Made by a program: the position numbers and the translations under genes
Source of the DNA: a virus
Reading direction: 5' to 3' (one strand)
IMG/VR virus record: IMGVR_UViG_3300025141_000042
Coordinates: 36,292-100,291 of that record
DNA length: 64,000 nt
The notes under the pieces: model-generated
The model's input: the letters and a program-made list of their open reading frames with translations, nothing else
What the model was told of the DNA's origin: nothing
The model's database searches: none
Part shown: one piece after another, positions 13,605-42,770 of the stretch
Layout: each line of letters starts with the position of its first letter
Numbering within the stretch: position 1 is the first letter of the stretch

Positions 13605-15176
13605 TTACTCGTCAATTATCGCGTGACTTGTTGTGATAAGAGTACCGATTGCCGATACAGAATTCTGAAGTGCACACCGGGTTACTTTTACTGGATCGAT
13701 GATGCCATTTTCCTTGAGATCTACAATCTCGCCTGTCGAAAAATTAAAACCTGTACCCTCTTCGGTAGACAATGCCTGGTCTAAGACAACATCTGGTTTC
13801 ATTCCTGCGTTTCTGGCCATCTGCTTAATCGGTGCCTGGACGGCATCAGTAACGATCTTTACGCCAAGTTCTTGATCTCGGTTTTCAGCATCTATCTCCA
13901 CTTCCTTCGATGCCAAGAGGAGTGCCATGCCGCCGCCGGAGATCATTCCCTCCTGTTGTGCCGACTTGACTGCCTCAAGGGCATCTTCGATGCGATGCTT
14001 TTTCTCAATCATCTCCACTTCCGTATTGCCGCCAACATTGATAATAGCAATGCCGCTGGCCAAGCGAGTGATACGTTCTTGGATCCTTTCACAGACCTGC
14101 ATATTGTCAGTCTGCTCAAACTGAGACTTGAGAAGTTCAACACGCTCGGAGACCTGCTCTTCGCTTCCGTTACCTCCGACAACAGTTGTCAGTGTCTTAG
14201 TTGCCTCAATTGATTTAGCATTACCCAAGTTAGTCAGTTTAACGTCTCTCAACTTCAAGCCCGAGGAGCGGGAAATGAATGTGGCGCCGACACTGATTGC
14301 TAAGTCTTCCAGGATGTTTCGTCTCTCCTCGCCATAGCGGGGGCCCTTGATAGCAGCAACTTTCATAGTTCCTCGTGCTGCGTTCATTATCATTGCCGCG
14401 AGTGCCTGACCTTCTATCTCCTCGGCGACAACCACTAGTGGGCGACCATCTCTCGCGATCAGTTCTAGGACCGGTAAAATGTCTTCTACGAATTCTATCT
14501 TTTCATCGGTAACAAGGAATAGGGGATCGTTGTATTTCAGCACTCCCCTGCGCTCGTCGGTCACAAACGCGCCGGCAGCATAACCGTTATCGAAACGAAA
14601 ACCTTCCACGAGATCCAGACTTGTATCTAATGATTTGCCATCCTCAATTGTAATCGAACCATCTTTGCCGATCATATCGATTGCCGTAGAGATAAGTTTG
14701 CCGATGGTCCTGTCTCCGTTCGCTGAGATGGTAGCAATGTCCTCAATATCCGACAGTTTTGTTACCTTCTTTGAAATGTTGCGAAGATTGGAGACAATCA
14801 CAGAGGTTGCCTTGTCAATGCCACGTTTCAGTTCGACAGGAGAGGCACCGGCAACGATGTGCTTCTGTGCCTCTAGAAAAATAGCACGAGCAATAACAAT
14901 TGCAGTAGTGGTTCCATCGCCAGCACTATTGTTGGTCTCCTCGCTTGCTTGTTTGATTATTTGTGCGCCAACATTCTCAAACGGGTCGTCAAAGTCTACG
15001 AACCGTGCGACAGTTACACCGTCTTTAGTGATAATTGGAGAACCACTCTTCGGGTGGAGAATCACATTCCTCCCTTTGGGGCCCATGGTGGCAGAAACAT
15101 TGTCGGCCAACTTGTTTATGCCATTTAAAATTTTCTGATTTAAACCTTTTTGCGTATCAAGGTATTGTTTCGACAT
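13605..15176 (-). CDS. groEL: GroEL chaperonin
   Basis: 523 residues, close to the bacterial 540-550. ATP-site segments are intact: TMGPKGRNV, ITKDGVTVAR and AGDGTTTAIVIARAI. ISGGGMALLLA matches the second equatorial region. The flexible Gly-Met tail of bacterial GroEL is absent; the protein ends TTSHAIIDE. GGAGG precedes the ATG, and a perfect sigma70 promoter lies 38 bases upstream. The matching GroES-like gene is at 29125-29421. Probably folds capsid or other phage proteins in the host cytoplasm. Confidence 0.95.
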   Translation of the reverse strand: MSKQYLDTQKGLNQKILNGINKLADNVSATMGPKGRNVILHPKSGSPIITKDGVTVARFVDFDDPFENVGAQIIKQASEETNNSAGDGTTTAIVIARAIFLEAQKHIVAGASPVELKRGIDKATSVIVSNLRNISKKVTKLSDIEDIATISANGDRTIGKLISTAIDMIGKDGSITIEDGKSLDTSLDLVEGFRFDNGYAAGAFVTDERRGVLKYNDPLFLVTDEKIEFVEDILPVLELIARDGRPLVVVAEEIEGQALAAMIMNAARGTMKVAAIKGPRYGEERRNILEDLAISVGATFISRSSGLKLRDVKLTNLGNAKSIEATKTLTTVVGGNGSEEQVSERVELLKSQFEQTDNMQVCERIQERITRLASGIAIINVGGNTEVEMIEKKHRIEDALEAVKSAQQEGMISGGGMALLLASKEVEIDAENRDQELGVKIVTDAVQAPIKQMARNAGMKPDVVLDQALSTEEGTGFNFSTGEIVDLKENGIIDPVKVTRCALQNSVSAIGTLITTSHAIIDE

Positions 15177-22370: not shown

Positions 22371-22898
22371 TTATTTTTCGCTAAAAGAAGTATTGGTTGC
22401 ATGAAATGAATCGATAATGTCCCTAAACTCATCCATCCCTGACCGATTAGACTTCTTCTTCGTCAACTTCTTAACCAACTCGGAACTGCTCTGCACTTTG
22501 CGGCCGCCGATGGCAAACACCATTTCGATGCCGACTTCATCACACACTTCTCGCTCGCGTTGACATATCGACTCCTCATCGATGGTGCCGCCGTTGGCAA
22601 AATAATCTGGTTCTACTTTTCGCAGAGTGTTCGCAACGGTGCCATCGGCATCATCAGCAACAACAACACGGGCGACTTTCTTGATGCTCTTGAGGAGTTC
22701 AATTCGCTCCTCAAGAGTCATGAAATAGTATCCCTTTTTATCCAAGAGCCACTGGTCAGTATTCAGGATGACCACGACTCGACCATACTTGGCGGCGGCA
22801 CGGATAAGTTGGAGGTGTCCGATGTGAATCGGATCAAACCCCCCACTAATAGCAACCAGTTTATTTTTTCTCTTCTTCTTACCGGTCATTTGGATCAC
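22371..22898 (-). CDS. HIGH-motif nucleotidyltransferase (cytidylyltransferase-like)
   Basis: 175 residues from a GTG overlapping the polymerase stop; ATG at 22889 is an alternative. VAISGGFDPIHIGHLQLIRA holds the HxGH nucleotide-binding motif. A conserved lysine-rich segment LLDKKGYYFMTLEERIELL follows, as in HldE/RfaE-C-type and phage cytidylyltransferases. It would activate a phosphorylated small molecule with CTP or ATP, perhaps for surface sugar, lipid or NAD metabolism. The C-terminal 35 residues are family-unlike. Confidence 0.8.
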   Translation of the reverse strand: MIQMTGKKKRKNKLVAISGGFDPIHIGHLQLIRAAAKYGRVVVILNTDQWLLDKKGYYFMTLEERIELLKSIKKVARVVVADDADGTVANTLRKVEPDYFANGGTIDEESICQREREVCDEVGIEMVFAIGGRKVQSSSELVKKLTKKKSNRSGMDEFRDIIDSFHATNTSFSEK

Positions 22899-25800
22899 CC
22901 AAGGAGTTTGAAATATCTTGTGATACTGCGAGTTGAGAAACCCCAGACCGGATCATAATCCAGTTTTGCCATGTAGGGGTGATTCGTGTGGATCATATCT
23001 CTGCCCTTCTGGATACCCCAGCACTTAATCGCGGCAGACTCACTGTTCTTATCGATTGCCTCAACGAGCCACCAATCCTTACCATGCTTGGTCTTCTTTG
23101 GGATAACTTTCCTGGGTATGAACCACACTACGCCCAGTCCTTCATCGAATTCGCTGATGGGCGGAACAGCAACCTCTTCCAGTCGGCGCTCCACTTCCTT
23201 GGTCATGACCAGATCGAAAGGAAAGAGACCGGTGAGATCAATAAGATTCTCTAGTTTTTCCTCGGCAGTAAAATCTCCTTCTGGAGCGAATTTCTCGATG
23301 TTCTCCTTAAGGTTCTTTTCCTTCCTGGGTCTGTCGCTTGCAATTGCCATCCAAAAGTGTTTCAGACCTGTGAACCTTTCATCCACCAATGCATTCATTG
23401 CCTGTGATCGAACAAGGGCATCAATGCTCTTCTTGTTTACTTTCGAGTATGACATACGCTCATTGAAGAGGAAATCCTCAACCGTCTTGAATGGGCGGTG
23501 CTCAACGATCTCTTTAATTGCTGCATCCCCTAGACCCTTGACACTGGATAGTGGTTGAATCAACGTCTTTCCATCTTCGCTTATCTCCCATGTAAATCCG
23601 CTCGTGTTTATATCGAGTTTCCTAATTCCGAAACCCATGCTTCGGGCAATGTTAATTGCTTTCTCTTTACGTGCTTCCGGTTCTTTGTCTAGGAATGCTG
23701 CCATCCATTCAGATGGGTAATAGTTTAACAACCACGCACATTGAAACGAGAGAATACTGTAACTCAAGGCATGGGACTTATTGAAACCGTACCCGGAAAA
23801 GTATTCGAAATTATCCCACAACTTCTGTGCTTTATCAGCATGGATATCCTTCTCAAGGCATCCAGTGATGAACTTGTCGTGGATCTTCGTCTTTAATTTG
23901 TCTTTCTGGGAACCCTTCTTTGTGAGGATCTTGCGAAGCATATTCCCTTCGTCCAGACTGAGGTCTTTGCCCAAGCGGTGGGCAAGCAATGCAATCTGTT
24001 CTTGAAAGATCATAAACCCGTAAGTCTCTTTCGTAATCTCTTTCACAATCTTGTGTTCGTATTTGATATTATCCGGACTCTTTTTCGCTGAGATGTAATT
24101 CTTGTCAACCTTGGCAGACAAGGGTCCAGGGCGATAGATGCTTGTAATCGCAGACAGGTCAACAATGTTCTTCGGCTTTACCTGCTTGCAGAATCTCTGG
24201 GCGCCTCCTTCTGTGAATTGGAATATGCCTGCCCAGCGACCCTTCTGGAAGACCCCTTTATACACCTTCTGATCATCCAGGTCAATCACGTTCGGATGGA
24301 GATTCTTTTCGTAAAAATCTTTCACATCACTGAAGGATGGATCTGGATTGTTGTGGTGCCTCTTGAGGATGTGCGTGATTGCCGATTCCATCATGCGCAA
24401 AGATGCTAGACCCAGGATATCAAACTTAATAAACCCCATGGGTTCTAGGTGGCGGACATTCTGACCCTCACTCCATGGAGTCTGCTTGACGCCTCCGCTG
24501 TTAATGATGGGCATATGCCTGTCTAAGTTATCGCCAACAACGACGCCGCCGGCATGGCGCGAACAACTGCGGATTTGACCATAGAGTGCATCAATGTCTG
24601 TGGCGGCCGTCGGGTATTTGCGGAAGAAATCCTGCAAAGTCGGACTGTGCTCCTTTACTTCCTCGAAAGTAGGGATATACATGCCAGCAGACATGCCCTT
24701 CGCCTTCTTGGCAAGCGGTGTGGCCTCTTTCATCATTACGCTGGTTACAATGTTCACCTCTTTAAACGGGATCCCTTGCATCTTACTAATGTCTTTAATA
24801 AGGGACTTAAGTTGGAGGGTGTTCCAGTTGGAAATCGGCACAACTTTATCCTCACCCCACTCTTCGATTAGAACCTCTTTGAGAACCATGGGATCCGAAA
24901 CGTCATAATCTATATCAGGGAAACCTGCGTCTTTCTGGTTTCTCGTCATGAACCGCTCGAACAGCAAGTCATACTTAAGAGGATCTACCTGCGTGATCCC
25001 CAGGACATACGCCACCAAGGAACCGGCGGCACTGCCGCGAGCAGGACCGACCAACTGGCGGGAAGAGGCGATATCAGCAATAGCTTTCATCGTCAGAAAG
25101 TATTGTGAAAAATCATTAATATTAATGACCTCCAACTCCTCAGTCAACCTCTCTACATAAACAGACCTCTTATTGAGACCGGCGGATTTAAGTCCCGCAG
25201 TGGCACACTCCACAAGCGCATCGGCCGGGGTCTTGCCCTCGGGTACCACGAAACTTGGTAATCGTACCGTATTATCTGGTAGAAACCTGGATATTCTGAC
25301 ATGGGCAATGTTATGTGTTTCGGCGATAGAGTCGCGTACCAGATTATCATCGTATTCATATCCGCAATCCTTTGAGTAGGACTTATAAGACTCCCACATC
25401 TCATCCCCGTTTTTGGGGTAAAGTTGGTATGCCATCCCATCAATATCTTCTGGGAGTTCTGAGTTTTCAGTCCCTTTTCCAATCCAACCTAATTGTTTGT
25501 AAACTTCTCTTTGCTTCCAGGATTGGGGGTTCGGGTAGTGACTGTCGGCCGTGCTGATCATCTTCAGATCGAACTCTTTTGCTATCTCAATAATGTGCTT
25601 GTTGAGTTGATGCTGCTCGTCGATCCTGTTCCATTGCAATTCCGCATACCATCTGTCTCCGAAGATATCAACCATCTTCGATGTGGTCGTGCGCATGGCG
25701 TCCCTCACTGCGTCAGGACCGCTGTCACGGTTCTCCCAGAAGTCGCCTGCATAGACGCCGCCGAGACATGCGGATGCTGCTATGACCCCACTGTTGTGCT

Positions 25801-26329
25801 CCTGGAGCATATCATAATCTATCCTAGGGAATCGATAATAATTCCCCTCGCGGTAACTCTTGCTGATCAGGGTAAAGATATTATTCAAACCTTCCTGGTT
25901 CTGTGCCAGGAGGATCAAATGGCGCCGCTTATTCAAGATGCTCTTTATTGCTTTCTTGGTTTCCTGCTCATCTTCGACTGTGGCACCAGAGACATCATCA
26001 TCCAACTTTGCTGACTTCTTCTTGCTCGCTGCCTTCTCTTCTTTGATGCGCTCGTACTCTGAGCGCCACTCTTTAATCGAGGGAATGAAGTATGCTTCGA
26101 CTCCAAAAATGGGTTTAAAATCTTTGCCATCTTGCTCCATCTTCTTGGCATGTAGCACCTGGTATGCCAAACCATTCATGTTCCCATGATCGGTGAGTGC
26201 CAAAGCATCCATGCCATTTTCGTAAGCAAAATCCATGTGTGCTTGTGGGTAACCTAGTCCGTCAAAGACGCTAGCAACAGAGTGGGCATGGAGGCCGACG
26301 AAAGGGATGGAGGAGACTTTTCTTTGCAT
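22895..26329 (-). CDS. dnaE: DNA polymerase III alpha subunit-like replicase (family C, DnaE)
   Basis: 1144 residues, similar to the 1160 of E. coli DnaE. The N-terminal PHP domain keeps its metal ligands in FVGLHAHSVASVFDG, ALTDHGNMNGL and FGVEAYF. The palm carries the first catalytic Asp pair in FPDIDYDVSD and the third Asp in IKFDILGLASL. GPARGSAAGSLVAYVLGITQ and RHAGGVVVGDNL also match DnaE. The C-terminal region after residue about 1000 is divergent and has no evident clamp-binding motif. Start has a weak GGAT site. Own sigma70 promoter. Probably the main replicase. Confidence 0.95.
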   Translation of the reverse strand: MQRKVSSIPFVGLHAHSVASVFDGLGYPQAHMDFAYENGMDALALTDHGNMNGLAYQVLHAKKMEQDGKDFKPIFGVEAYFIPSIKEWRSEYERIKEEKAASKKKSAKLDDDVSGATVEDEQETKKAIKSILNKRRHLILLAQNQEGLNNIFTLISKSYREGNYYRFPRIDYDMLQEHNSGVIAASACLGGVYAGDFWENRDSGPDAVRDAMRTTTSKMVDIFGDRWYAELQWNRIDEQHQLNKHIIEIAKEFDLKMISTADSHYPNPQSWKQREVYKQLGWIGKGTENSELPEDIDGMAYQLYPKNGDEMWESYKSYSKDCGYEYDDNLVRDSIAETHNIAHVRISRFLPDNTVRLPSFVVPEGKTPADALVECATAGLKSAGLNKRSVYVERLTEELEVININDFSQYFLTMKAIADIASSRQLVGPARGSAAGSLVAYVLGITQVDPLKYDLLFERFMTRNQKDAGFPDIDYDVSDPMVLKEVLIEEWGEDKVVPISNWNTLQLKSLIKDISKMQGIPFKEVNIVTSVMMKEATPLAKKAKGMSAGMYIPTFEEVKEHSPTLQDFFRKYPTAATDIDALYGQIRSCSRHAGGVVVGDNLDRHMPIINSGGVKQTPWSEGQNVRHLEPMGFIKFDILGLASLRMMESAITHILKRHHNNPDPSFSDVKDFYEKNLHPNVIDLDDQKVYKGVFQKGRWAGIFQFTEGGAQRFCKQVKPKNIVDLSAITSIYRPGPLSAKVDKNYISAKKSPDNIKYEHKIVKEITKETYGFMIFQEQIALLAHRLGKDLSLDEGNMLRKILTKKGSQKDKLKTKIHDKFITGCLEKDIHADKAQKLWDNFEYFSGYGFNKSHALSYSILSFQCAWLLNYYPSEWMAAFLDKEPEARKEKAINIARSMGFGIRKLDINTSGFTWEISEDGKTLIQPLSSVKGLGDAAIKEIVEHRPFKTVEDFLFNERMSYSKVNKKSIDALVRSQAMNALVDERFTGLKHFWMAIASDRPRKEKNLKENIEKFAPEGDFTAEEKLENLIDLTGLFPFDLVMTKEVERRLEEVAVPPISEFDEGLGVVWFIPRKVIPKKTKHGKDWWLVEAIDKNSESAAIKCWGIQKGRDMIHTNHPYMAKLDYDPVWGFSTRSITRYFKLLG

Positions 26330-31656: not shown

Positions 31657-33021
31657 TTAGTTGCTGGTCTGATCTTCTCTTCGCTCTTCTCTCATGAGTC
31701 TGTAGACCTTCTTGGGCCCGCTCTCTGCATCATTCGAGGAAAACTCTGATTGTGGGAATACTCGTATCTCCACATTAGCCGGATCCATAAAAATAGGAAA
31801 CACTATGCCATCGAGTCCATTTCGATTCTTGGCAATATAAATTCTTCCTGTATTATTGGATTTGTCTGCCCCCGTTCTGGATACCGAGAATATGAAGTCT
31901 GCCACAAAACACTTTGAGAATGCCTCGCTTATGGATTCCATAGTTATGACCTCGGCATTTATTCCGCTCCTATTAGTCTGGGATGCTGTCCAGACTGGGC
32001 ACTCGTATTCTTGAGCGATTGCCCTTAATTCTTCATAAATAGTTTCGAGTTCATTCCTTTTCTCCTTGGAGTATGCAATTGGTCTCAAAATATCAGCATA
32101 ATCAACAACGATCATCCCGATGTCGAAATCTCTACTCTTTAACTTTTCCAAGTGATTTCTGATTGTTTGTGTTGTGGCACTCTTAGTGGGGTATTCCTTC
32201 ACAAGGAGTCGTCCTGGGATTTCTTTGATTTCCTCGAAAACCTCTTCCTTGTTGGAATAGAGTTGATTAATCGGGATCCCCGTTATACAACTGTCGTATC
32301 TGTTGCCGATTATTGTGTCTTGAAGTTCCAAAGTATAATGTACCACTGTAGAACCCTTCTTGATGGCCGACGCACCCAAGTGGGCGAGGACCATGCTTTT
32401 TCCCACTCCAGTTGGGGCAATAACAACGCCAAGTTCGCCTCGCCCAAGTCCGCCGCCAAGAGTCTTATCTATCTCATCCCACCCGGTTGATACCGGGTTG
32501 CGATGAGTTAACTGATATCTCTTCTCGAAATCCTGCAAAAAATCATAACCAACATCATTTCCGACGCCAAGTTTTAGCGCGTCGTTGATTATCTTGCTAA
32601 CCTCGTCAAAAGAAGAGTCTTGCATCAACTTCACGCTCTTGAGCATTGCTCCTTGCAGATTCTGCTTTCGGCAGAAGTCGAGCGTCTTGTCTCTGACATA
32701 TACCTCATCTACGCTATCGGGCGTGGATTTGATTCTGACGTAGAAACTGCGTACTTGTTGGCGCACCACGTCGCTAACCGAGGAATCTTCGCTTTTCAGA
32801 ATACTCTCAAAAGTAGCGAGGGAAGGGTGCTTTTTGTATTTTTCCTTGTAAGAGAATACTTTCCGAACAAAGTCTTGTAAGTATTTTAATTCAAAGAAAT
32901 TGATGTCGAGAACTTCGCCCACTTGACTGGCGAAGCTAGAGTCTTCCAGAATTATTCTTGCCAAACTCTCTTGAAAGGGTTTGCCAAAGGAACCAAATGT
33001 CGCTTCTTTCTTGTTTTCCAT
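31657..33021 (-). CDS. Replicative DNA helicase (DnaB/gp41 type)
   Basis: 454 residues from ATG at 33021; a TTG seven codons upstream is an alternative. RecA-fold core has Walker A IAPTGVGKSM, Walker B MIVVDYADIL and an SQTNRSG segment (H3 region). STGWDEIDKTLGGGLGRGEL is the linker to the ATPase. The N-terminal 150 residues are helical, as in gp41. Unwinds DNA 5'-3' at the fork. Operon neighbour of 5'-3' exonuclease and RecA. Confidence 0.9.
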   Translation of the reverse strand: MENKKEATFGSFGKPFQESLARIILEDSSFASQVGEVLDINFFELKYLQDFVRKVFSYKEKYKKHPSLATFESILKSEDSSVSDVVRQQVRSFYVRIKSTPDSVDEVYVRDKTLDFCRKQNLQGAMLKSVKLMQDSSFDEVSKIINDALKLGVGNDVGYDFLQDFEKRYQLTHRNPVSTGWDEIDKTLGGGLGRGELGVVIAPTGVGKSMVLAHLGASAIKKGSTVVHYTLELQDTIIGNRYDSCITGIPINQLYSNKEEVFEEIKEIPGRLLVKEYPTKSATTQTIRNHLEKLKSRDFDIGMIVVDYADILRPIAYSKEKRNELETIYEELRAIAQEYECPVWTASQTNRSGINAEVITMESISEAFSKCFVADFIFSVSRTGADKSNNTGRIYIAKNRNGLDGIVFPIFMDPANVEIRVFPQSEFSSNDAESGPKKVYRLMREERREDQTSN

Positions 33022-33046
33022 TGATCCGTCCGTATTGGTCAAAAAA

Positions 33047-34018
33047 TTATAGTTTGTGATCGGAGATCATTTTTCTGAAAGAAGCATATAACTCCTCAAG
33101 ATTGATCTGTGGAAAACCGTCCTCGAACAAGAGTTTGACAACGCCAGTATTATTAAACAATGGTTTATACTCGCCAAATGTGCTCTTTATCTTTCTGGTA
33201 GTCTGAGTTGACAGTGCTGGAGAATATAGTTGCATCATCTTGTAGTTGATTTTTACTGTCTCTATGTTTTCGATGATATCGTTATAGAATTTCACTTTGC
33301 CGTCTTTATGCTCTTCGCAATACTCTAGAATTTCAGAAATAAGATAACTCTTATCCTCTGCCAAAAATGGCAGACGCTTTGCGACGGTTGCGAGTCCTGC
33401 GCGTGGCACACCAGGCAGATTATCTGACTTATCGCCTGCTATAGCACGAGCAGCAGCAAAATTATCTGGATGGATCTGGAATTTCTCAAGGATCGTGTTT
33501 CTGCTCACCACCTCGTCCTGGATCGGTCGATAGAGGATCGTTGAATCGCCACAAACTTGAAAAAAGTCCTTGTCGCTAGAGACAATGACCTTCTGCCAGT
33601 CAGAAAACACAGGAAGGTTGCTCACATAAGAAATTGTGTCATCGGCTTCTATCTCTGGGAACATGAACTGGACAACGGGTGTCTCATTCAGATATTCCAA
33701 TACGCGAACTTGCTGCCAGATGCGATTCTCTGATTCCTCATTCTCTGGCATGTTGCGAATGAAGCGATTAAGTCGGACGGGTTTTCTGCCCGCCTTATAT
33801 CCCTTAACAATACTTCTTCGCTTCTTACTTCCGCCGGCACCATCCCAGACAGTCACTATGAGATCCGGTCTGATAGTGCGGTTCAGTTTCTGCAATCCCT
33901 GAAGGAATCCTACGATCCCGCCAATTGGTTGACCATTGCTTGATATCGTGGGATTCACGATATAGTGCCGTATAAAGGCATTGTGGCCATCAATTATCAT
34001 CATCCTCTTTTTCGCCAT
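33047..34018 (-). CDS. 5'-3' exonuclease / flap endonuclease (T4 RNase H-like)
   Basis: 323 residues. MMIIDGHNAFIRHY, VTVWDGAGGSKKR, PEIEADDTISYVS and VSSDKDFFQV carry the acidic residues of the FEN family; AGDKSDNLPGVPRAG is the helix-hairpin-helix region with the last Asp. Removes RNA primers and 5' flaps. Overlaps the preceding coiled-coil gene by 29 bases. Confidence 0.9.
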   Translation of the reverse strand: MAKKRMMIIDGHNAFIRHYIVNPTISSNGQPIGGIVGFLQGLQKLNRTIRPDLIVTVWDGAGGSKKRRSIVKGYKAGRKPVRLNRFIRNMPENEESENRIWQQVRVLEYLNETPVVQFMFPEIEADDTISYVSNLPVFSDWQKVIVSSDKDFFQVCGDSTILYRPIQDEVVSRNTILEKFQIHPDNFAAARAIAGDKSDNLPGVPRAGLATVAKRLPFLAEDKSYLISEILEYCEEHKDGKVKFYNDIIENIETVKINYKMMQLYSPALSTQTTRKIKSTFGEYKPLFNNTGVVKLLFEDGFPQINLEELYASFRKMISDHKL

Positions 34019-34199
34019 CGTTCACTTCCAGTCTTTCCAACTTCTCTTTCAAAACTCTGATTCTTTCGAGCATTTTTACCCGGTCGTCACCCAGAGAGAG
34101 GACTTCATCATACAATCTCTCAATTGCACCCAGGGAAATCTCAATTGCCTCTCTGAGGGATTTGAATTCTTCTTCACTCACCTGGGTCTTCTTCTTCAT
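33990..34199 (-). CDS. Small coiled-coil protein, 69 aa
   Basis: Starts MKKKTQVSEEEFKSLREAIE within the end of recA. Heptad helix nearly throughout (IERLYDEVLSLGDDRVKMLE, IRVLKEKLERLE) with an acidic tail. It overlaps both neighbours, RecA by 26 and the exonuclease by 29 bases. Possibly a small replication or recombination accessory; unproven. Confidence 0.55.
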   Translation of the reverse strand: MKKKTQVSEEEFKSLREAIEISLGAIERLYDEVLSLGDDRVKMLERIRVLKEKLERLEVNDGEKEDDDN

Positions 34200-35304
34200 C
34201 CGACTCGTAAAAGGTAGATGCATCAACGATTCTTTTATCGAACTTCAATACAACCTCCTCATCGATCAGTTGCATCACTCGGGCACGGAACTTCTCGTCT
34301 TTCATTTGTTCTGCCCACTTTGCCGACTGGAACTTCTGCGAGGTGCCATCTTCGAACTTAAGCGTCCACCAGGCACCAGCACTACTGATATGCTCGGAAG
34401 ATTGGATTGCCTCGAAAAGACTCTCATCGTCGCGGACGCCTATATCATCGCCCCACATAATTTTGAAGTTGCAAGTGCGGCCGGAAGTGCCAAAGCGGGA
34501 TTTCTCCAAACGTGCCTTCACCTCATTGCCGATCCGATAATTCTTCTGATCCAGAATATAACTGCTCTTGCCGCGTCGTCCAGTTAACCAAATACGGAGA
34601 CTGTAGGCATATGCCATTGACTTGCCGCCTGGACAGACATACTTCTCGCTGTCTGTGGCATATTTTGGGTTTGTTACCTGCAAGTTTGTTTTCAGTTGAT
34701 TCAATACCAATAATGTGGACTGAGAATTCGCGAGGGATACGACCAATTTTGACATTCCCTTGGCCAAAACTCTGGCTTTTACCGCAACGGACTCGTTGGG
34801 ATTAAAAGTTCCCTCAACGTCGCTTACTGCTGGCGTTAGCGCAAGAGAGTCCCATACAAATAGAAACTTATCGTCACTAGAGTTGAGGAGCGTCTCTATC
34901 GTCTCTAGGACGAATTCAACAGACGTTGCTTGTACATAACCGATCTGAGAAATATCAACGCCGCTGCGTGTCAGAAACTTTGGATCAATGGCAGATTCAG
35001 AATCGAAATAAAAGACCTGTAGTCCCATCTTCTGGGCATTGGCACATGTCTGTGCTGCCATGTAACTTTTACCGCTCGCTTCCATTCCGGCAATCTCAGT
35101 CAATTTGCCCACTGGAATGCCTGCCATCTTGCCTCGGCATATGATTCCGTTTAACCACGTTGAACCAGTCGGGATCCACTCTTTCACCTCAGTAGGGTTC
35201 TCAGAAGTCAGATCGTGTGCCACTGGCATGCCGGCTTTCTTGTTGATGAGTGCTCGCATCTCGTCGATGCTCAAACTTCCTTGTTTGGGTTTGATTCTCG
35301 CCAT
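34174..35304 (-). CDS. uvsX: RecA/UvsX-like recombinase
   Basis: 376 residues, CGAGGA before ATG. ATP site GMEASGKSYMAAQTC is a Walker A with Ala and Ser variants. YFDSESAIDPKF has the catalytic Glu, LFVWDSLALTPA is Walker B, and VLNQLKTNLQV with CPGGKSMAYAYSLRIW are loop regions. The C-terminus is acidic (YESDEEEDPGE). Carries out strand exchange and recombination-dependent replication with gp32. Preceded by a terminator, then AT-rich DNA. Confidence 0.9.
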   Translation of the reverse strand: MARIKPKQGSLSIDEMRALINKKAGMPVAHDLTSENPTEVKEWIPTGSTWLNGIICRGKMAGIPVGKLTEIAGMEASGKSYMAAQTCANAQKMGLQVFYFDSESAIDPKFLTRSGVDISQIGYVQATSVEFVLETIETLLNSSDDKFLFVWDSLALTPAVSDVEGTFNPNESVAVKARVLAKGMSKLVVSLANSQSTLLVLNQLKTNLQVTNPKYATDSEKYVCPGGKSMAYAYSLRIWLTGRRGKSSYILDQKNYRIGNEVKARLEKSRFGTSGRTCNFKIMWGDDIGVRDDESLFEAIQSSEHISSAGAWWTLKFEDGTSQKFQSAKWAEQMKDEKFRARVMQLIDEEVVLKFDKRIVDASTFYESDEEEDPGE

Positions 35305-35379: not shown

Positions 35380-36141
35380 CTAAGCGCCCATCAGTTCATC
35401 TAGGGCACTATCTACCCTTCCCGCCCCGGCGGGGGCAGTTGCCGTATACTTCGTCACCTCGCTAGCAAACTCCTCGGGAGAGTCTGAAGCAAGATGTGCA
35501 TCCAAGTATCCCCGGACATCGGTTGCTGACTTTCGCTCAAAGAGAGTCTCAAAGTCAGGGATGTTGGAGAGGATCTGTTCGCATTGCTCTTCGCTCAGTT
35601 TATCGCTGCAAAGAGTGCTAGAACGTCGTTTCGGAGTAATCTTAGTTACTGGAAACTGTCCTCCCGGTGGTTTCCCATAATTGATGTCCAAATCAATCCC
35701 GGTTTCAGTATCGGTAATGTCCCCATAGTCCGGATTCAGCACAAGACCTAATAGGGTTTCATAGACCGTCTTCGAGAAACCCCAAAGACGGGCGCCTGAT
35801 TCCTCTTCTCCCCGAGTCAGCACAGGAGAGAAAAATCGGGACTTAACACCGAGCTGGCGCGCCATTGCTCGACTTTCTTCATCGCCCTCTTGATAAAGAC
35901 CACGAACAAATGAGCACACCGCACAGTCATCACCATAGTTGTGTTTCGGACAAAGAAAACCATTCTCTTTGCCGACACCATAGTGAAAAGAAAAACTTTT
36001 GAAAGGATCTCCATCCTCAGTCGGCACAATCCGAACTGTTTGTAAACCTTCCGATGGTTTCCAGAACTGACTTGCGCCGCCCTGCCCACGGTTTTGTAAG
36101 GCAGAATACTTCTCTTTCATCTTCTTCATATCAATAGCCAT
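35380..36141 (-). CDS. 32: Single-stranded DNA-binding protein (gp32-like)
   Basis: 253 residues, AAAAGGAG before ATG. N-terminus MAIDMKKMKEKYSALQNRGQ; core with SEGLQTVRIVPTEDGDPFKS and the zinc site CPKHNYGDDCAVC (C/H/C/C), as in gp32. The tail has an acidic, Ser/Ala-rich segment and ends VDSALDELMGA. Coats ssDNA and recruits replication proteins. Driven by a perfect sigma70 promoter and followed by a terminator, so probably abundant. Confidence 0.9.
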   Translation of the reverse strand: MAIDMKKMKEKYSALQNRGQGGASQFWKPSEGLQTVRIVPTEDGDPFKSFSFHYGVGKENGFLCPKHNYGDDCAVCSFVRGLYQEGDEESRAMARQLGVKSRFFSPVLTRGEEESGARLWGFSKTVYETLLGLVLNPDYGDITDTETGIDLDINYGKPPGGQFPVTKITPKRRSSTLCSDKLSEEQCEQILSNIPDFETLFERKSATDVRGYLDAHLASDSPEEFASEVTKYTATAPAGAGRVDSALDELMGA

Positions 36142-36175: not shown

Positions 36176-36204
36176 ATTATAACAGATCACTTTTGCTCTG
36201 TCAA
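36176..36204 (-). promoter_or_regulatory. Consensus sigma70 promoter of the gp32-like gene
   Basis: TTGACA at 36204-36199, 17-base spacer, TATAAT at 36181-36176. The -35 and spacer overlap the 3' end and stop codon of 36187-36471, so there is no terminator between. Confidence 0.9.
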
Positions 36205-36471
36205 GTGTTTTGTTTCGAATTCTTTTTTCTCTTGTCCCTCTAACAGTTTAACGCCGATATCGCCTACGGCCGTCTTCCAATTAAAGGTGCGCAGTCCGCT
36301 TTGTTCCAGATCCCACACGAGTTCCTGACCGGGTGGCAAAAGTCTAGGTTTTGCCTTGGAACCTATCTTTGTTTCCAGAAATGTGGTTGGAAGATCCTCC
36401 AACTTCACAAAGGTCATAGTTCGAACTTCATCGTTCTTCTTTTTGAAACTTCCATTGAAAATTTTAACCAT
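36187..36471 (-). CDS. Small SH3-like protein, WYL_2/DUF2693-like (tentative)
   Basis: 94 residues from MVKIFNGSFKKKNDEVRTMT, AAGGAG before ATG. FKKKNDEVRTMTFVKLEDLP, PPGQELVWDLEQSGLRTFNW looks like a small phage beta-barrel (DUF2693/WYL_2 pattern). It overlaps the tubulin-like gene by 8 bases. Its stop lies in the next promoter. Function unknown. Confidence 0.5.
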   Translation of the reverse strand: MVKIFNGSFKKKNDEVRTMTFVKLEDLPTTFLETKIGSKAKPRLLPPGQELVWDLEQSGLRTFNWKTAVGDIGVKLLEGQEKKEFETKHLTEQK

Positions 36472-37306
36472 GTTCTTCTCCTTGGGTTATTTTCGTTTGT
36501 GACAGAATATAGATGTAATTTTTTTCGTACTCAGACGGGTAGACACCATATCCGGCCCGCACTGAATCATCTTTCTGTCTCGTCCTGATCTTTATTTTTG
36601 ACAAAAGATCAACATCCTGTTCTATTTGCTTTTCATTGATAGAGAAATAATACCTCTTTTCCAGAGTATTGTCAAGAGAAAAGAACATCTGGTCGGTATT
36701 TTTTTCTATCTCCCCGATTCCTATGGTACATATCCTGCTTAGTTCGTCCTCTGGTGGGAGTGTAGAAATAGCAGGGTTGCTGTTCTCGCAGACCTTGAGC
36801 ATATGAAATGCTGACGTTATGATCCCGTTCAGCACTTCAAAATATCTTCCGATGGGAATATTACCAACTGTCTTTTGGATCTCGGAATTAGAAACAAGGT
36901 ATAGTCTCTCGAACAGACCAGATCGCGCATATTGCTGGAAGACGTTAAAAGTTACCCTATCCAACATGCGCGACTCTTTATTGGAGTCCTCCTCGTCTTG
37001 CTTAATATACAGAACTTCTGTTTTGTTCTTCTTCAGTGCTTCCAAGATCCTCAAGGATGCTGAAGATACTCTGCTTCCTCCAGCGACGACAAATAACACA
37101 TCCCCCTGTATCTTCCTCAGTTGGGTTAATACTCTTGCCGGAAACTTGCTTTCATGCTCTTCGATGGTCTCTCTTTTTGGGATTGTGAAGGAGCAGTCCT
37201 CCTTCTTGAGTCCTGTGTTTACCTTATACACCTTATATTGAGGATACTGAGAGAATCCCTCAACTATCTTGCACCCTGCCGTGCCAAGACCAATTACGTT
37301 AATCAT
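36464..37306 (-). CDS. Tubulin/FtsZ-superfamily-like protein (divergent)
   Basis: 280 residues from MINVIGLGTAGCKIVEGFSQ, AAGGAG before ATG. The start GLGTAGCKIVEGF fits the T1 loop plus helix 1 of FtsZ; VLFVVAGGSRVSSASLRILE fits strand-T4-helix, with AGGSRVSS in place of GGGTGTG. YLVSNSEIQKT then FEVLNGIITSAFHMLKVCEN resembles the T6/helix 7 region. IGIGEIEKN begins a second domain as in FtsZ. The GTGTG signature and a clear T7 Asp are missing, so it may bind nucleotide differently or not polymerise. Located at the end of the late operon beside a DNA polymerase. Moderate confidence. Confidence 0.55.
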   Translation of the reverse strand: MINVIGLGTAGCKIVEGFSQYPQYKVYKVNTGLKKEDCSFTIPKRETIEEHESKFPARVLTQLRKIQGDVLFVVAGGSRVSSASLRILEALKKNKTEVLYIKQDEEDSNKESRMLDRVTFNVFQQYARSGLFERLYLVSNSEIQKTVGNIPIGRYFEVLNGIITSAFHMLKVCENSNPAISTLPPEDELSRICTIGIGEIEKNTDQMFFSLDNTLEKRYYFSINEKQIEQDVDLLSKIKIRTRQKDDSVRAGYGVYPSEYEKNYIYILSQTKITQGEEHG

Positions 37307-38487
37307 TTATTAATCTCCTTCATGCTTCCGAAATCTTTGCCTGCTTTAACATTGACCATAAAATCTCCAAAATTGTTCCGGGAAAAAATTTCTGCAATTT
37401 GCGAAACGAGGGCCGTTTCGTTTTTGTCCAAATCAAGCACAAAACTATCGTGGATGAGAAAAACAATCTTAGACTTCTTTCCCTCCAGAAGTTTCTTAAC
37501 CTTCAATACTTGCTTAAGCACAAGATCGTTAGTCGTACTCTGTATAATGTAGTTTAAGGCATAGTGCTCTTGCGCCTCTATTTGCCTTCCAAAGGGCGTT
37601 ATCACCTTTTCGCCATCCCAGTGCTGGTTTAGCACTTTCCTGCGATTGTAGACCCTATCAAGCGTTCTGTCGGTGCAATTAGGGTTGTATAACCAAGAGA
37701 AGACGCGCTTCTTCGCTTCTTCACGCGAAATGTTGTCAAATACATTGTGCATATTCCACTCGTGCACGTCCTCTTGTGGTTGTTCCACTCCGGCAAGTGC
37801 CAACAGCGTCCTGAGTTCTGCGGCATTATAATCAAACTCCACAAACAAATCATTGTTCGGTTTTAGGATGCCGCGATACGAGTGCTTCAGGTTCAGAATG
37901 GGGAAACTGTCCTCAGTAACAGTCAGGCGGCCAGTCTTGGTACCAAACTGATTATACTTGATGGTTTTCCTGGTTGCAACCCTCTTTAGAAGATTTCGAA
38001 CTGCGACCTGCTGTCGTATTGGGGTAAGCACCGAAAGGTCCATATTCAACACATTCGATTCGATGTCTCCGAACAGTTTCTCCAACTCCAGAGTGAACTC
38101 ATAAGATTCTGGTCTCTCATACTTCTTATATACCTCTTGCATTATCTCACAATTAACTTGAGAATATTCTCTGAGGAACCAATCGGGTATCATGTCATAA
38201 ATGCATACGTCTGACAGGCTTATCTTACTGCTCCGAATTACCTTTGCATATGCCTGCTTCTTTTCGCGAAGCGACACCATCTCGTCGTGCAAATGCGGAG
38301 GACAGAGTTCTGACAACTTGCGACCATTACAATACAGAGAAAGATACTCAGCACCGTCGATGTGATGGTGGTGCTTGTAATCCCAAGTTATAGACTTTTC
38401 TATGTTGCTGGGTAACTCTTCGTGGATGGCACCATCGTAGTAATAACCCAGGCATTCTTTTTTTGAATCAAGGATTGTAAAGAACAA
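37303..38487 (-). CDS. Short family A DNA polymerase (polymerase domain only)
   Basis: 394 residues, TTG start with GAGGATAGG. Motif A: FVEFDYNAAELRTLLALAG. Motif B: REEAKKRVFSWLYNP, keeping R, K, F and Y at the family spacing. Motif C: FLIHDSFVLD, where the usual Glu after HD is Ser. TKTGRLT matches the TGR motif. There is no 3'-5' exonuclease domain, so it is much shorter than T7 (704) or Pol I. It probably fills gaps or does repair beside DnaE. Follows a baseplate gene by 16 bases with no promoter. Confidence 0.8.
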   Translation of the reverse strand: MFFTILDSKKECLGYYYDGAIHEELPSNIEKSITWDYKHHHHIDGAEYLSLYCNGRKLSELCPPHLHDEMVSLREKKQAYAKVIRSSKISLSDVCIYDMIPDWFLREYSQVNCEIMQEVYKKYERPESYEFTLELEKLFGDIESNVLNMDLSVLTPIRQQVAVRNLLKRVATRKTIKYNQFGTKTGRLTVTEDSFPILNLKHSYRGILKPNNDLFVEFDYNAAELRTLLALAGVEQPQEDVHEWNMHNVFDNISREEAKKRVFSWLYNPNCTDRTLDRVYNRRKVLNQHWDGEKVITPFGRQIEAQEHYALNYIIQSTTNDLVLKQVLKVKKLLEGKKSKIVFLIHDSFVLDLDKNETALVSQIAEIFSRNNFGDFMVNVKAGKDFGSMKEINK

Positions 38488-38503: not shown

Positions 38504-39712
38504 CTAAAACCTGAAGTTGCCTCTTCTGTACTTACCCAATGCCTTGTCTTCGCCCCATGGTCGTCTTACTTCTTTGTTGATATATTTGTGGGCGGCAGTG
38601 GCGTCTGAGTATTTGATAAACTGGGATGCTTTCTTGAAAACTTTCTTAAATTTATTTTGATCCCAGTCTCGATTTGTTTCCTTTGCTCGAATATAAATGT
38701 ACAGTTTTGTCCAGAGGTTATCGTTCGGAATCCAATTCGAATTGTATTCCTCCTCCGAAAGAGTAACACGGGTGTAAATCTTTGTCAAGTTGTTTTTCGT
38801 GTTTTTTCCAGGGAGGAGAGGAACGCTCACTTTGGGGAACTGGGTGACGAAAACATTATAGAACTCTCTCATGTAAAATTGGAGGTCTGTCATGTCCTTG
38901 AAACTCGCCTTCGCATATAATTTGTCTACCATGTTATCATAAGTTATATCGTATGCCGACATCTGAGCAGTCATCCCTTCAGACCCAGGTCTCGCGACCA
39001 GTCGCCACGGGGCATTCTTATCCACGTTGAAACCATGGTTGGCTGCTGCCTGTCGATATATTTCAAAGTGATTGTCGTTGTTGTAATTCGCAATTTTCTC
39101 AAGATCCTCGCCATGATCACTTTCGGCATCTATTTCTATTACCAAACCTGTGTGTGCTGGAGATGATAAATTGCTAAGTATATATTCGCTCATAGTGAAT
39201 GGTCGCAAGAGCGTAATCCTATCAATAAGTGCTGTAAATTGATTTACAAAATCCTCAAAATCCATAATCGTCGAGTTTACGTCGGGATTTGCCATGAAAG
39301 ACAACACGAAGTTATCATAAAAGGATCTCATGTATGTAAAGTAATCTTGCCTTGGGTCGCGCCAACCTCTTTGTGCATTCAGTCCGTTTGAGAGGAAACC
39401 TGGACCTACGGCATTGATGGAACCATTGGATAATTTTGCCTGTATATCCAATTTCATCGACACAAACGCATCGGACACAAAGTTTAAAGCATATACTTCT
39501 GCATCACCGAGAACTCTCTTTATAAATGCGGAGCCAGATGCCGGATAAATGGCATCCTGGTTTCTATCTATCCTCCCAAATAGGAGATGATCATACCAAT
39601 AATCTACATTAGCATGGTCAGACAGGCCCGTGGAATAATTTTTTATATATTCTCTTCTTTCGTTGTAAGAAGCACTGGCAGGAAGTTCATTTGATCCAAA
39701 ACTAAATTCCAT
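38504..39712 (-). CDS. Virion structural protein, baseplate region
   Basis: 402 residues from MEFSFGSNELPASASYNERR. Its start overlaps the 903-aa gene stop as TAATG. Aromatic and Asn-rich soluble protein with no signal peptide or repeats. Position between the gp53-like/903-aa genes and polA points to a baseplate component, but no T4 counterpart is recognised. Confidence 0.6.
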   Translation of the reverse strand: MEFSFGSNELPASASYNERREYIKNYSTGLSDHANVDYWYDHLLFGRIDRNQDAIYPASGSAFIKRVLGDAEVYALNFVSDAFVSMKLDIQAKLSNGSINAVGPGFLSNGLNAQRGWRDPRQDYFTYMRSFYDNFVLSFMANPDVNSTIMDFEDFVNQFTALIDRITLLRPFTMSEYILSNLSSPAHTGLVIEIDAESDHGEDLEKIANYNNDNHFEIYRQAAANHGFNVDKNAPWRLVARPGSEGMTAQMSAYDITYDNMVDKLYAKASFKDMTDLQFYMREFYNVFVTQFPKVSVPLLPGKNTKNNLTKIYTRVTLSEEEYNSNWIPNDNLWTKLYIYIRAKETNRDWDQNKFKKVFKKASQFIKYSDATAAHKYINKEVRRPWGEDKALGKYRRGNFRF

Positions 39713-42423
39713 TATGACTTATCCTCCTTCTCTAAGGGGGGCTCTCCGTTCACTTCTTTGGCTTCCACTTTTTGAGTCTGTAACTTATTTGCTTGGGCGG
39801 CCGCCAGGGCACTGTTGTTCTGTATACAAGTCAGTTCCGACGACAAAGTTCCGGGCGTGATTCTGGTTGACACGCTAATAAGGTTATAAAGACCTCCCAA
39901 CCCAAGTCTTTTCGTAATTGACTTTGCAGATTGGGCAGCACCTAAACCGACATAGGATGGGCGTAAGTACAGATATTGACCTGGATAAAAACCAGGATTT
40001 CCATAAATGGTGACATCAGCATCGTAAGGCATGCTCAAGATATTCACGGCATCCAAATATCCGGACTTTAATTGCTCCTGAAGATTTATCTCCTTCCTTC
40101 TGGAAGATGTCTGCCTAAAGTTTATATCTTTAACGATACCTGTTCTGCTTCCGACTGACAAATGGTAGATACCTCGATTTGCATCTTCTTCTTCGTTTTC
40201 GCCCACGTTGCCCACGATTGGTATTCTTGAACCATGGACAATAATGTGTTTCACTGGGAGTTCTCTATCTTCGATATTCTCTTTCCCTGCCAAACCACCT
40301 AGATTGACCTTTTCAATCGTCTCGCTCCAAGTTTTCGTGTCATCCAAGTCCGTTATGAGTCCATTCGTTCTATTTTCCCACAGTTTGTAACCTTCGCCGT
40401 CTATGCGCGTGATGATCATGCCGCCCTTTCTCTCCAACTGCTGCTTTACTTCGGAAGACTTGCGGCCGGCGACGAAAGAGTCCATTGCTGCAACAATCAA
40501 TTTCTCGACTGCCTTCTTGAGAAACTGGTCAAACGTCAAGACGGTACCGCTGTGCTTAATAACTACGTCTCGCATGAAAGAGTGGTAAAGACTATAGGAA
40601 ACTGGGAGTTGTGTCAGGTTAATGTTTATAGGTTGGGTTTCACTTATCCATTTCGCTCTGTCCACTTCGTATTCTTTTTCTGGCGGGTACTTCATGTATG
40701 TGAAGTTGCCCAAGACGACTTCTGCCAGTTGGGGAAGGTTAGAGTGCTTTCCCGCGACAGTCCAGAGAGCGGTTGCGGGTTTTTGAATCCTTAATTTATT
40801 CATGTTTGGACGGTTTTCAAGCGGTACTAGCGCATATGCTGCATAATTCAACAAGTCGCCCAGGAAAAAATAACCAACAGTGTGGTATCCCCACTTATCT
40901 TTGGTTGTGTCTAGATACCCTTCATCACTATCTTCTTGTGCCATTGCTGCTTGCGACTTTGAAAGTGCCTCTTTTGCCATGGCCGCGGAGATTACCTGGT
41001 CCGGCGCCTTTTTGCTACTAATAGGTTTCCAAATGCCTTTCCTATAATCGTCTTCGTCCACCGTTACACTAAACAGTCTCTTGTTTCTATAGAGGTATTC
41101 CATGAACCTACCATAATTACTAATTCTGTTATTCTTTACGGCCTTCTCGATTGAGAGTTCCAATTCACCAATCTTTGTCTGGATTGCCTTCTTTGCTTTT
41201 GATTTCTTGTCCTTCGAGTTCTTCTCCCACTTCTCGTACTTTCCCAGCTTCTCTCTAAGACCATCTATTTCCTCCCTCTCCTTTTCGGTTTGACCAAGCG
41301 TTAGAATATTTGCATCGATGTCGTCTGCTAGTTGCTCAGAGGCCGCTGTGAATCCTACTGATAATTCGGCACTACCGTCGTTACCAAAGGTGAAATTAGT
41401 GGTGATAGGATAGAGAGCCAGTACCATACGAGTGTTTTTTATTGCGTTTTTCAATTTTTGCTTGGTGTCGTCTAGTACGTTCTCCGAGAAGTCATAACCA
41501 TATTCGACATAGATTTCTGCCTTTCTCTCTTTTATTTGTTTCAGACGGATTCCGTCTGAAACAACCTGGGCTTCGAGTTCATCAAGGATATCGCTGATGG
41601 GATCCGATTCCGCGTCGATGAATGGGGCGTCATCGACCAGTTTATCCGATTTATCCGATTTAAAATCGTGGTTGAACAGCAGATCTGACCATCTCAACTC
41701 GCCTTCTGGGACTTTACTATCATCCATATCAGCAACCGACCTAAAGAATAAGACCAGATTGCCTTCAAAGTTTCTTGTTGCAGTAAAACTATTTGTCCCG
41801 GTCATCTTTATATCAAAACTCTTTAAACCTATTTCTGAATGGCCAGTGGCACCGTTGTACAAATAACCTTCCAGATCCACAGAACTCTTTGCAAACTTAA
41901 ATTCTCTTATTCTAGGTTTTCCGTCTTTCTTATCTGACTTGAAAAATCTAATGTATGGTACCAGACTGCTGATATCGGCAGAAGATGCTCCCATGAGACT
42001 CAGCATGTCTTTTTTCGTCGTAAGTTTATTTACTAAGTTCTCTTCCGTGTGGGCAATACATAGTCTCGGCATTTGATACGCCGCTGGTGCGTTCTTGAGG
42101 ATATCGTTGCTTAGATTTTGCAAAAGAAAATTCTGATCTGATTGCTGGTCAATCCCCTTCTTTGCTTGCTCTTTCTTTTTGCGCAGGCGGCCTTTCTTCT
42201 TCTTCTTCTTCTTCTTGAGTGTCGCGATCTGAAATTTCTGTATGCGAGGGTCTTTGGCAACCTCTACGTCTGTTCCCTCGTAGACCACTTTGTCTTCTTG
42301 AGTTTTTTCCCAGTGCTCTCGAAACGTGGGAAGTTCTTCGATTTCTTTTTGTTTTAGTTCTTCTCCGACATTAATTTTTAGCGGCGCAGTTGCAGGTTTT
42401 CCTTTGCTTTCTTCCTCAGACAT
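39712..42423 (-). CDS. Large virion structural protein, 903 aa (baseplate)
   Basis: The N-terminus is acidic, then a Lys/Arg block from an AAG-repeat tract (about residues 69-90: KKKKKKKKGRLRKKKEQ). The middle contains long helical spacers (KYEKWEKNSKDKKSKAKK). The C-terminal 300 residues are beta-rich with HIIVHGSRIPIVGN and AVNILSMPYDADVTIYGNPG. Both ends overlap neighbours as TAATG. Size and place suggest a major baseplate wedge or hub protein; no clear homolog. Confidence 0.6.
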   Translation of the reverse strand: MSEEESKGKPATAPLKINVGEELKQKEIEELPTFREHWEKTQEDKVVYEGTDVEVAKDPRIQKFQIATLKKKKKKKKGRLRKKKEQAKKGIDQQSDQNFLLQNLSNDILKNAPAAYQMPRLCIAHTEENLVNKLTTKKDMLSLMGASSADISSLVPYIRFFKSDKKDGKPRIREFKFAKSSVDLEGYLYNGATGHSEIGLKSFDIKMTGTNSFTATRNFEGNLVLFFRSVADMDDSKVPEGELRWSDLLFNHDFKSDKSDKLVDDAPFIDAESDPISDILDELEAQVVSDGIRLKQIKERKAEIYVEYGYDFSENVLDDTKQKLKNAIKNTRMVLALYPITTNFTFGNDGSAELSVGFTAASEQLADDIDANILTLGQTEKEREEIDGLREKLGKYEKWEKNSKDKKSKAKKAIQTKIGELELSIEKAVKNNRISNYGRFMEYLYRNKRLFSVTVDEDDYRKGIWKPISSKKAPDQVISAAMAKEALSKSQAAMAQEDSDEGYLDTTKDKWGYHTVGYFFLGDLLNYAAYALVPLENRPNMNKLRIQKPATALWTVAGKHSNLPQLAEVVLGNFTYMKYPPEKEYEVDRAKWISETQPININLTQLPVSYSLYHSFMRDVVIKHSGTVLTFDQFLKKAVEKLIVAAMDSFVAGRKSSEVKQQLERKGGMIITRIDGEGYKLWENRTNGLITDLDDTKTWSETIEKVNLGGLAGKENIEDRELPVKHIIVHGSRIPIVGNVGENEEEDANRGIYHLSVGSRTGIVKDINFRQTSSRRKEINLQEQLKSGYLDAVNILSMPYDADVTIYGNPGFYPGQYLYLRPSYVGLGAAQSAKSITKRLGLGGLYNLISVSTRITPGTLSSELTCIQNNSALAAAQANKLQTQKVEAKEVNGEPPLEKEDKS

Positions 42424-42770
42424 TACGAAGACCTCCTCATATAGATCGACATTGCACGTTCAAACGGGAGAGGGATCTCTATCGTGCTTCCGACTTCTAC
42501 GTGTGCCTCCGTTGGGGTCTGGTTATACCAAGCAATCAGCCACCAGTAGGTTGGATCTCCGTAATACTGATCTGCTAATTTATAGAACCTACTTCCGACT
42601 CTCCATACCACAGTATCACTATCGAGGAATGCCTTTTCGGATGGAGAAGGATAACTTATGTTCGCAGTCTTATACTGTCTTATGAACTGAATGCCCCTCT
42701 TCTTGAAGAGACTCTTATATTGTTCTGAGGAGTTTCTTCCTATTTTTCTGTTATCGTATCTGGATGTCAT
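42423..42770 (-). CDS. 53: gp53-like baseplate wedge protein with LysM-like domain
   Basis: 115 residues. SDTVVWRVGSRFYKLADQYY then WWLIAWYNQTPTEAHVEVGS and TIEIPLP is a LysM-like fold as found in T4 gp53 and tail-tip proteins. Overlaps the 903-aa gene by one base (TAATG). Likely a baseplate wedge protein; LysM also hints at peptidoglycan contact. Confidence 0.7.
   Translation of the reverse strand: MTSRYDNRKIGRNSSEQYKSLFKKRGIQFIRQYKTANISYPSPSEKAFLDSDTVVWRVGSRFYKLADQYYGDPTYWWLIAWYNQTPTEAHVEVGSTIEIPLPFERAMSIYMRRSS

Follow-up and report, generated by a model that had tools for sequence, protein, structure and literature searches.

Gene and genomic context

The window analysed here is a 64,000-nucleotide stretch (positions 36,292 to 100,291) of a 100,291-bp IMG/VR viral record (IMGVR_UViG_3300025141_000042), and all coordinates below refer to that stretch. 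On its minus strand lies a gene for a 280-residue protein, hereafter TUB, which is placed, as a preliminary description of this DNA had stated, between a DNA polymerase and gp32, with a PolA-type polymerase upstream and a gp32-like single-strand DNA-binding protein (SSB) downstream. The features of the locus are the following.

31657..33042, minus strand: DnaB/gp41-type replicative helicase
33047..34018, minus strand: exonuclease (phrog_107)
34174..35304, minus strand: UvsX-like recombinase
35380..36141, minus strand: gp32-like SSB (PF08804, 1e-9; phrog_1192, 2e-19)
36176..36204, minus strand: perfect sigma70-type promoter, TTGACA-17-TATAAT, before SSB, conserved in most relatives
36187..36471, minus strand: 94-aa open reading frame in the TUB-SSB interval, where a minority of relatives have one
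36464..37306, minus strand: TUB, tubulin/FtsZ-fold protein, 280 aa, ATG start (reading of the open reading frame, AF2 model, Foldseek)
37315..37320, minus strand: Shine-Dalgarno sequence AAGGAG, 8 nt 5' of the TUB ATG (direct reading)
37303..38487, minus strand: PolA-type DNA polymerase domain, 394 aa (PF00476, 4e-15; phrog_17)

The start of TUB overlaps the PolA stop by 4 nt, and TUB overlaps the downstream 94-aa reading frame by 8 nt. TUB is a real gene, as homologues were found at no fewer than 594 loci in IMG/VR and dN/dS across 13 pairs of relatives was about 0.05-0.25, mostly 0.05-0.15, which indicates purifying selection. The same virus had been called T4-like, and this holds if the term is taken broadly (gp23-type head protein, sheath, UvsX, DnaB/gp41-type helicase), but its polymerases are a DnaE-type enzyme and a short PolA. 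The former is a complete DNA polymerase III alpha subunit of the bacterial type (DnaE, 1144 aa; 22895-26329, minus strand) that was also found in 14 of the 15 long related contigs tested, and the latter (37303-38487, minus strand) consists of the polymerase half, with motif A DYNAAELR, motif C HDS and no exonuclease domain seen. This PolA and TUB have roughly equal numbers of relatives. The window also encodes a GroEL-type chaperonin of the phage's own (13605-15176, minus strand; phrog_5725, 1.5e-142).

The order of these genes is widely kept. Of 105 loci, 89 have PolA no more than two genes upstream of TUB, 13 others have no PolA in the stretch covered, and 99 have SSB directly or one gene downstream of TUB; the most frequent PolA-TUB spacing is -4 nt. 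When loci were selected by PolA alone, TUB followed PolA in 74 of 78, and the four without TUB end 9-1,597 bases past PolA. In five loci (L241, L262, L041, L042, L067), unrelated genes of ~640-850 aa sit between PolA and TUB, and TUB is still found before SSB.

Promoter-like sites, defined as at least 10 of 12 matches within 120 bases upstream of a gene, precede PolA in 47% and SSB in 70% of the relatives (2-4% in a shuffle null), and occur before TUB in 3%, before UvsX in 4% and before the upstream baseplate-region gene in 0%. No strong site of this kind precedes the window's own PolA. Because promoters stand before PolA and SSB and none before TUB, PolA-TUB has the appearance of an early transcription unit, in which TUB would probably be co-expressed with PolA, as judged from these predicted sites and the gene order. 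The preliminary description had placed the gene last in a late operon, which the sigma70-type promoters that relatives carry before PolA and SSB do not support.

Fold and homology of the TUB protein

Searched alone, the window's protein returned nothing significant in Pfam, PHROGs or PDB sequence searches, and HMMER searches of the PDB with single TUB members or a TUB profile gave chance matches only. A single-sequence AlphaFold model was unusable (pLDDT 37). The model built with 81 family members had a mean pLDDT of 94.5 and a pTM of 0.92, and contains a GTPase domain, a core helix H7 and a C-domain, that is, the two-domain fold of the tubulin/FtsZ superfamily. The gene had been proposed to encode a divergent tubulin/FtsZ-like protein, with a different fold or a better match to another Rossmann family named as the outcome that would speak against it; in the structural comparison run here with Foldseek, the best 50 PDB matches were all FtsZ (E 1.6e-14 to ~1e-12, TMq 0.67-0.74), covering nearly the whole chain at ~9-16% identity. 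Of the six best BFVD matches, four bear the name FtsZ, cell-division protein or tubulin, and two have uninformative names. The top match there, and the best viral structural match, is A0A6J5RW92, an "FtsZ Cell division GTPase" of an uncultured Caudovirales phage (TMq 0.78), which differs from TUB in its length of 452 aa, shares 12% identity with it and is likened to it by structure alone.

Sequence profiles point the same way. The Pfam Tubulin/FtsZ model PF00091 matched 10 of 81 TUB members (best E 1.4e-4), and the profile-profile score of TUB against a combined alignment of FtsZ and phage FtsZ-like proteins was 32.1, a value reached by none of 60 column-shuffled versions (14.8 +/- 2.0, maximum 19.6), by the reversed profile (18.8) or by the unrelated PolA family (17.2). 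This set of shuffle, reversal and unrelated-family controls replaced the hhalign single-pair probability, which was low (1.6-9%). The weak matches of TrkA_N and NAD_binding to a few TUB members might suggest an enzyme with no relation to tubulin, whether an ordinary NAD(P)-binding one of Rossmann type or another, but the NAD families reach E 0.004 at best while the FtsZ structural match extends over nearly the full length, and this identity, which we consider scarcely credible, was rejected on fold. Given the fold, the PF00091 matches and a profile-profile score above all controls, homology to the superfamily is secure, and we regard the membership of TUB in it as practically certain.

Every motif cited in the preliminary description in support of an FtsZ/tubulin order was found, in the order stated: GLGTAGCKIVEGF corresponds to T1, VVAGGSRVSSASLRILEAL to S4-T4-H4, VSNSEIQ...FEVLNGIITSAF to S6-T6-H7, and IGIGEIEKN to the first C-domain strand. 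With element names assigned from their order in the model, the chain comprises S1 (2-7), H1 (8-20), S2 (24-31), S4 (70-75), H4 (79-90), S5 (96-102), H5 (110-128), S6 (134-139) and H6 (140-147), followed by H7 (152-174), four C-domain strands and a broken helix; the order is that of the superfamily throughout. The chain ends ~10 residues past the last strand, with no long C-terminal linker or conserved peptide.

Predicted nucleotide pocket and the opposite face

Segments with conserved residues, together with the region where the catalytic loop would be expected, are listed below.

37268..37294, minus strand: T1 glycine loop, residues 5-13, IGLGTAGCK; G6 and G8 invariant
37235..37249, minus strand: H1-S2 loop QYPQY, residues 20-24; Y24 conserved in 99%
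37052..37084, minus strand: T4 phosphate loop, residues 75-85, AGGSRVSSASL; family form GGSGxISGASL
36917..36937, minus strand: end of H5, QQYARSG, residues 124-130; Q124 and R128 invariant, S129 conserved in 99%; predicted to lie on the face opposite the nucleotide
36866..36907, minus strand: S6-T6-H6, residues 134-147; N140 is the equivalent of a guanine-contact Asn of FtsZ
36785..36853, minus strand: core helix H7, residues 152-174; N160 is the equivalent of the second guanine-contact Asn
36734..36784, minus strand: position of the T7 loop and H8, residues 175-191; extended, no helix, no conserved acid

In the tubulin/FtsZ superfamily, the positions of FtsZ N165 and N187 contact guanine. 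The profile alignment pairs them with N140 and N160 of TUB, and both are Asn in 125 of 137 non-redundant TUB sequences, the window's protein included. In the T4 loop, G76 is kept in 84% and G78 in 74% of the family, with three or more glycines in 55%; the window's AGGSRVSS reads as a worn copy of the family's GGSGxISG. From these residues we infer that most members, including that of the window, would bind GTP or GDP on the usual face.

At the catalytic loop, the remark that no clear T7 Asp is visible extends to the family: among the 137 non-redundant homologues, no column from 170 to 192 is more than 63% acidic, the top columns reaching 58% and 63%. Helix H8 is absent from the AlphaFold model, where an extended stretch runs between H7 and the next strand. 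TUB would thus be expected to lack GTP hydrolysis through the canonical head-to-tail T7 contact. A second conserved face, composed of QYPQY, QxYARS and HMxN, is predicted to lie opposite the nucleotide, a placement made by topology, not from coordinates. Its conservation equals or exceeds that of the pocket; it is retained in lineages whose pocket has been destroyed, and it probably carries the main interaction of TUB.

The pocket has been lost repeatedly. Of 147 distinct TUB sequences, 134 keep the two Asn and are free of an acid at position 78. In eleven, both N140 and N160 are gone, and all eleven carry D or E at T4 position 78, a substitution seen in only 1 of the 135 sequences with both Asn; intermediate states account for two of the 147. 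As three separate segments change as one unit, a shared ligand site is supported. The eleven sequences form ~4 clades with four origins by parsimony, a count that rests partly on weakly supported nodes (0.14-0.85), two of the clades being placed with support above 0.75. Residues G6, G8, L85, Y100, Q124, R128, S129, G196, F208 and Q275 are unchanged in all eleven. As read from the substitutions, the gene survives the destruction of its predicted pocket. The one long contig with pocket loss (190 kb) encodes TUB once and gave no match to TUB2 (the second family described below).

Distribution and a second FtsZ-like family

Queries with three different members found no TUB homologue in 50,697 INPHARED phage records, no cellular relative was found in a genome collection searched with one sequence pattern, and the family is undescribed in the open-licence papers searched. 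The PolA neighbour and a 903-aa upstream gene likewise had no match in the phage records, so the whole lineage appears to be uncultured. The carriers of TUB are a large uncultured group of bacterial viruses, mostly marine, and TUB is a new virus-specific family that belongs to the tubulin/FtsZ superfamily by fold and descent, has a near-minimal C-terminal domain and stands outside FtsZ, PhuZ and TubZ proper. The "separate branch" of the preliminary description is borne out. TUB was single-copy in every contig checked, and a pair of active and inactive TUB paralogues was rejected on that count.

Related uncultured phages also encode a canonical FtsZ/tubulin-like protein of ~345-410 aa, termed TUB2 (P0002, alignment A4), as at L113:1027-2121 on the minus strand of contig G005 and at loci L118-L197; at L113 it adjoins what we take to be a sigma-like gene. 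TUB2 has a GGGGGTGS phosphate loop in most members, is matched by PF00091 (3e-6) and by FtsZ PDB entries at the sequence level, carries an acidic DDFDF-type N-terminal extension in many members and has no match in isolated phages. Profile alignment pairs the T1, T4, T6-Asn and H7-Asn positions of the two families, whereas the T7 aspartates are retained in TUB2 (D249 and D252 in 39 of 39) and TUB has no T7 acid. Of the 35 contigs initially examined for the two proteins, many of them incomplete, 7 carried both, and this co-occurrence leaves an obligate alpha/beta-like pair unsupported. In phages with TUB2 only (L207, L209, L218-L222), a diverged PolA occupies the corresponding position behind the baseplate-region genes, and in the two such loci that were read (L207 and L209) a ~180-aa gene of unknown function follows PolA in place of TUB.

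Comparison with known systems and possible roles

The tubulins of phages are chiefly known from jumbo phages and from plasmid-like elements, in which DNA is moved by filaments powered by GTP hydrolysis. The forms described are the PhuZ and TubZ types, which occur in jumbo phages and in the partition systems of phages (PMC3678025, PMC4244570, PMC7824862). TUB shares with FtsZ the fold of N-domain, H7 and C-domain over nearly the full length, the T1 glycines and the two guanine-contact Asn, but it has GGSGxISG or less where FtsZ has GGGTGTG in T4, it lacks the T7 acid, H8 and H9 (the helices by model secondary structure) as well as a long C-terminal tail, and it sits among viral replication genes; the FtsZ family model TIGR00065 matched 2 of 81 members, with a best E of 0.044. 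PhuZ of phiKZ-like jumbo phages is likewise a phage-encoded superfamily member linked with phage DNA, whereas TUB is smaller and without a canonical T7 loop. BLASTP of TUB against phiKZ PhuZ was not significant, and the family had no significant PHROG match. TubZ of plasmids and phages is, like TUB, an extrachromosomal FtsZ/tubulin relative; the two are set apart here by gene surroundings, not by comparison with TubZ sequences, as no repeated centromere-like sites adjoin TUB in the window, and a TubZ-like partition cassette was rejected for want of such iterons.

The fixed position between PolA and SSB, together with the missing catalytic loop, suggests a cytoskeleton-type protein that has become fixed replication equipment. 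We tentatively propose that TUB is a tubulin-fold, guanine-nucleotide-gated adaptor of the phage replication machinery that does not hydrolyse through T7. Such an adaptor, or short scaffold, would hold together or position PolA, SSB, UvsX and the helicase, contacts that are read from the gene neighbourhood; guanine nucleotide, whose binding is predicted, would gate it in most lineages, and its working surface would be the opposite face with QYPQY, QxYARS and HMxN. That the fold serves as a fixed replisome subunit with its essential role in the non-nucleotide face, repeatedly a pseudo-GTPase yet never lost, is an idea we consider possible though doubtful.

TUB might instead be a phage tubulin whose filaments position or segregate replicating phage DNA like those of PhuZ or TubZ, with non-canonical or absent hydrolysis. 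The superfamily fold and production together with replication genes accord with it, as do the conserved residues, which cluster on the nucleotide face and, judged by topology, on the one across from it, as a head-to-tail contact expects. Nevertheless we judge it unlikely, given that the T7 acid and H8, which make the usual longitudinal contact, are missing, that ~4 clades retain TUB with a destroyed pocket, the 190-kb contig among them offering no second TUB or TUB2, and that centromere-like repeats were not found adjoining the gene. The PhuZ spindle requires hydrolysis, and PhuZ T7 mutants still polymerise into filaments that are non-dynamic (PMC7950403), so a static or short TUB filament could be formed. 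The preliminary description had suggested a polymer, a GTP sensor or a capsid-positioning factor as possible roles; the missing T7 and H8 and the replication-gene context favour a role other than that of a PhuZ-like dynamic spindle.

An FtsZ-like fold with a nucleotide face and no T7/H8 face would make a filament cap, as expected of a decoy that co-assembles with host FtsZ, poisons it and blocks cell division, but TUB is near-universal in its lineage, fixed between PolA and SSB, under strong purifying selection and only ~9-16% identical to FtsZ, and we hold this role to be improbable. The genes at 38504-42770, one of which encodes a baseplate wedge subunit, are syntenic directly upstream of PolA and bring to mind a virion or baseplate assembly factor. 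This role appears very improbable, since a sigma70-type promoter parts PolA-TUB from those genes in about half of the relatives, TUB overlaps PolA, and TUB stays before SSB despite PolA-TUB insertions of 0.8-2.5 kb.

In an abundant, mostly marine T4-like lineage, a member of the tubulin/FtsZ superfamily is thus essentially always present beside the polymerase and SSB, without the hydrolysis loop. The existence of natural pocket-intact and pocket-dead versions of TUB makes the role of the nucleotide directly testable. If the reading of TUB as an adaptor of the replication machinery is true, the tubulin fold would serve in these phages as part of a replication complex instead of as a motor-like polymer.
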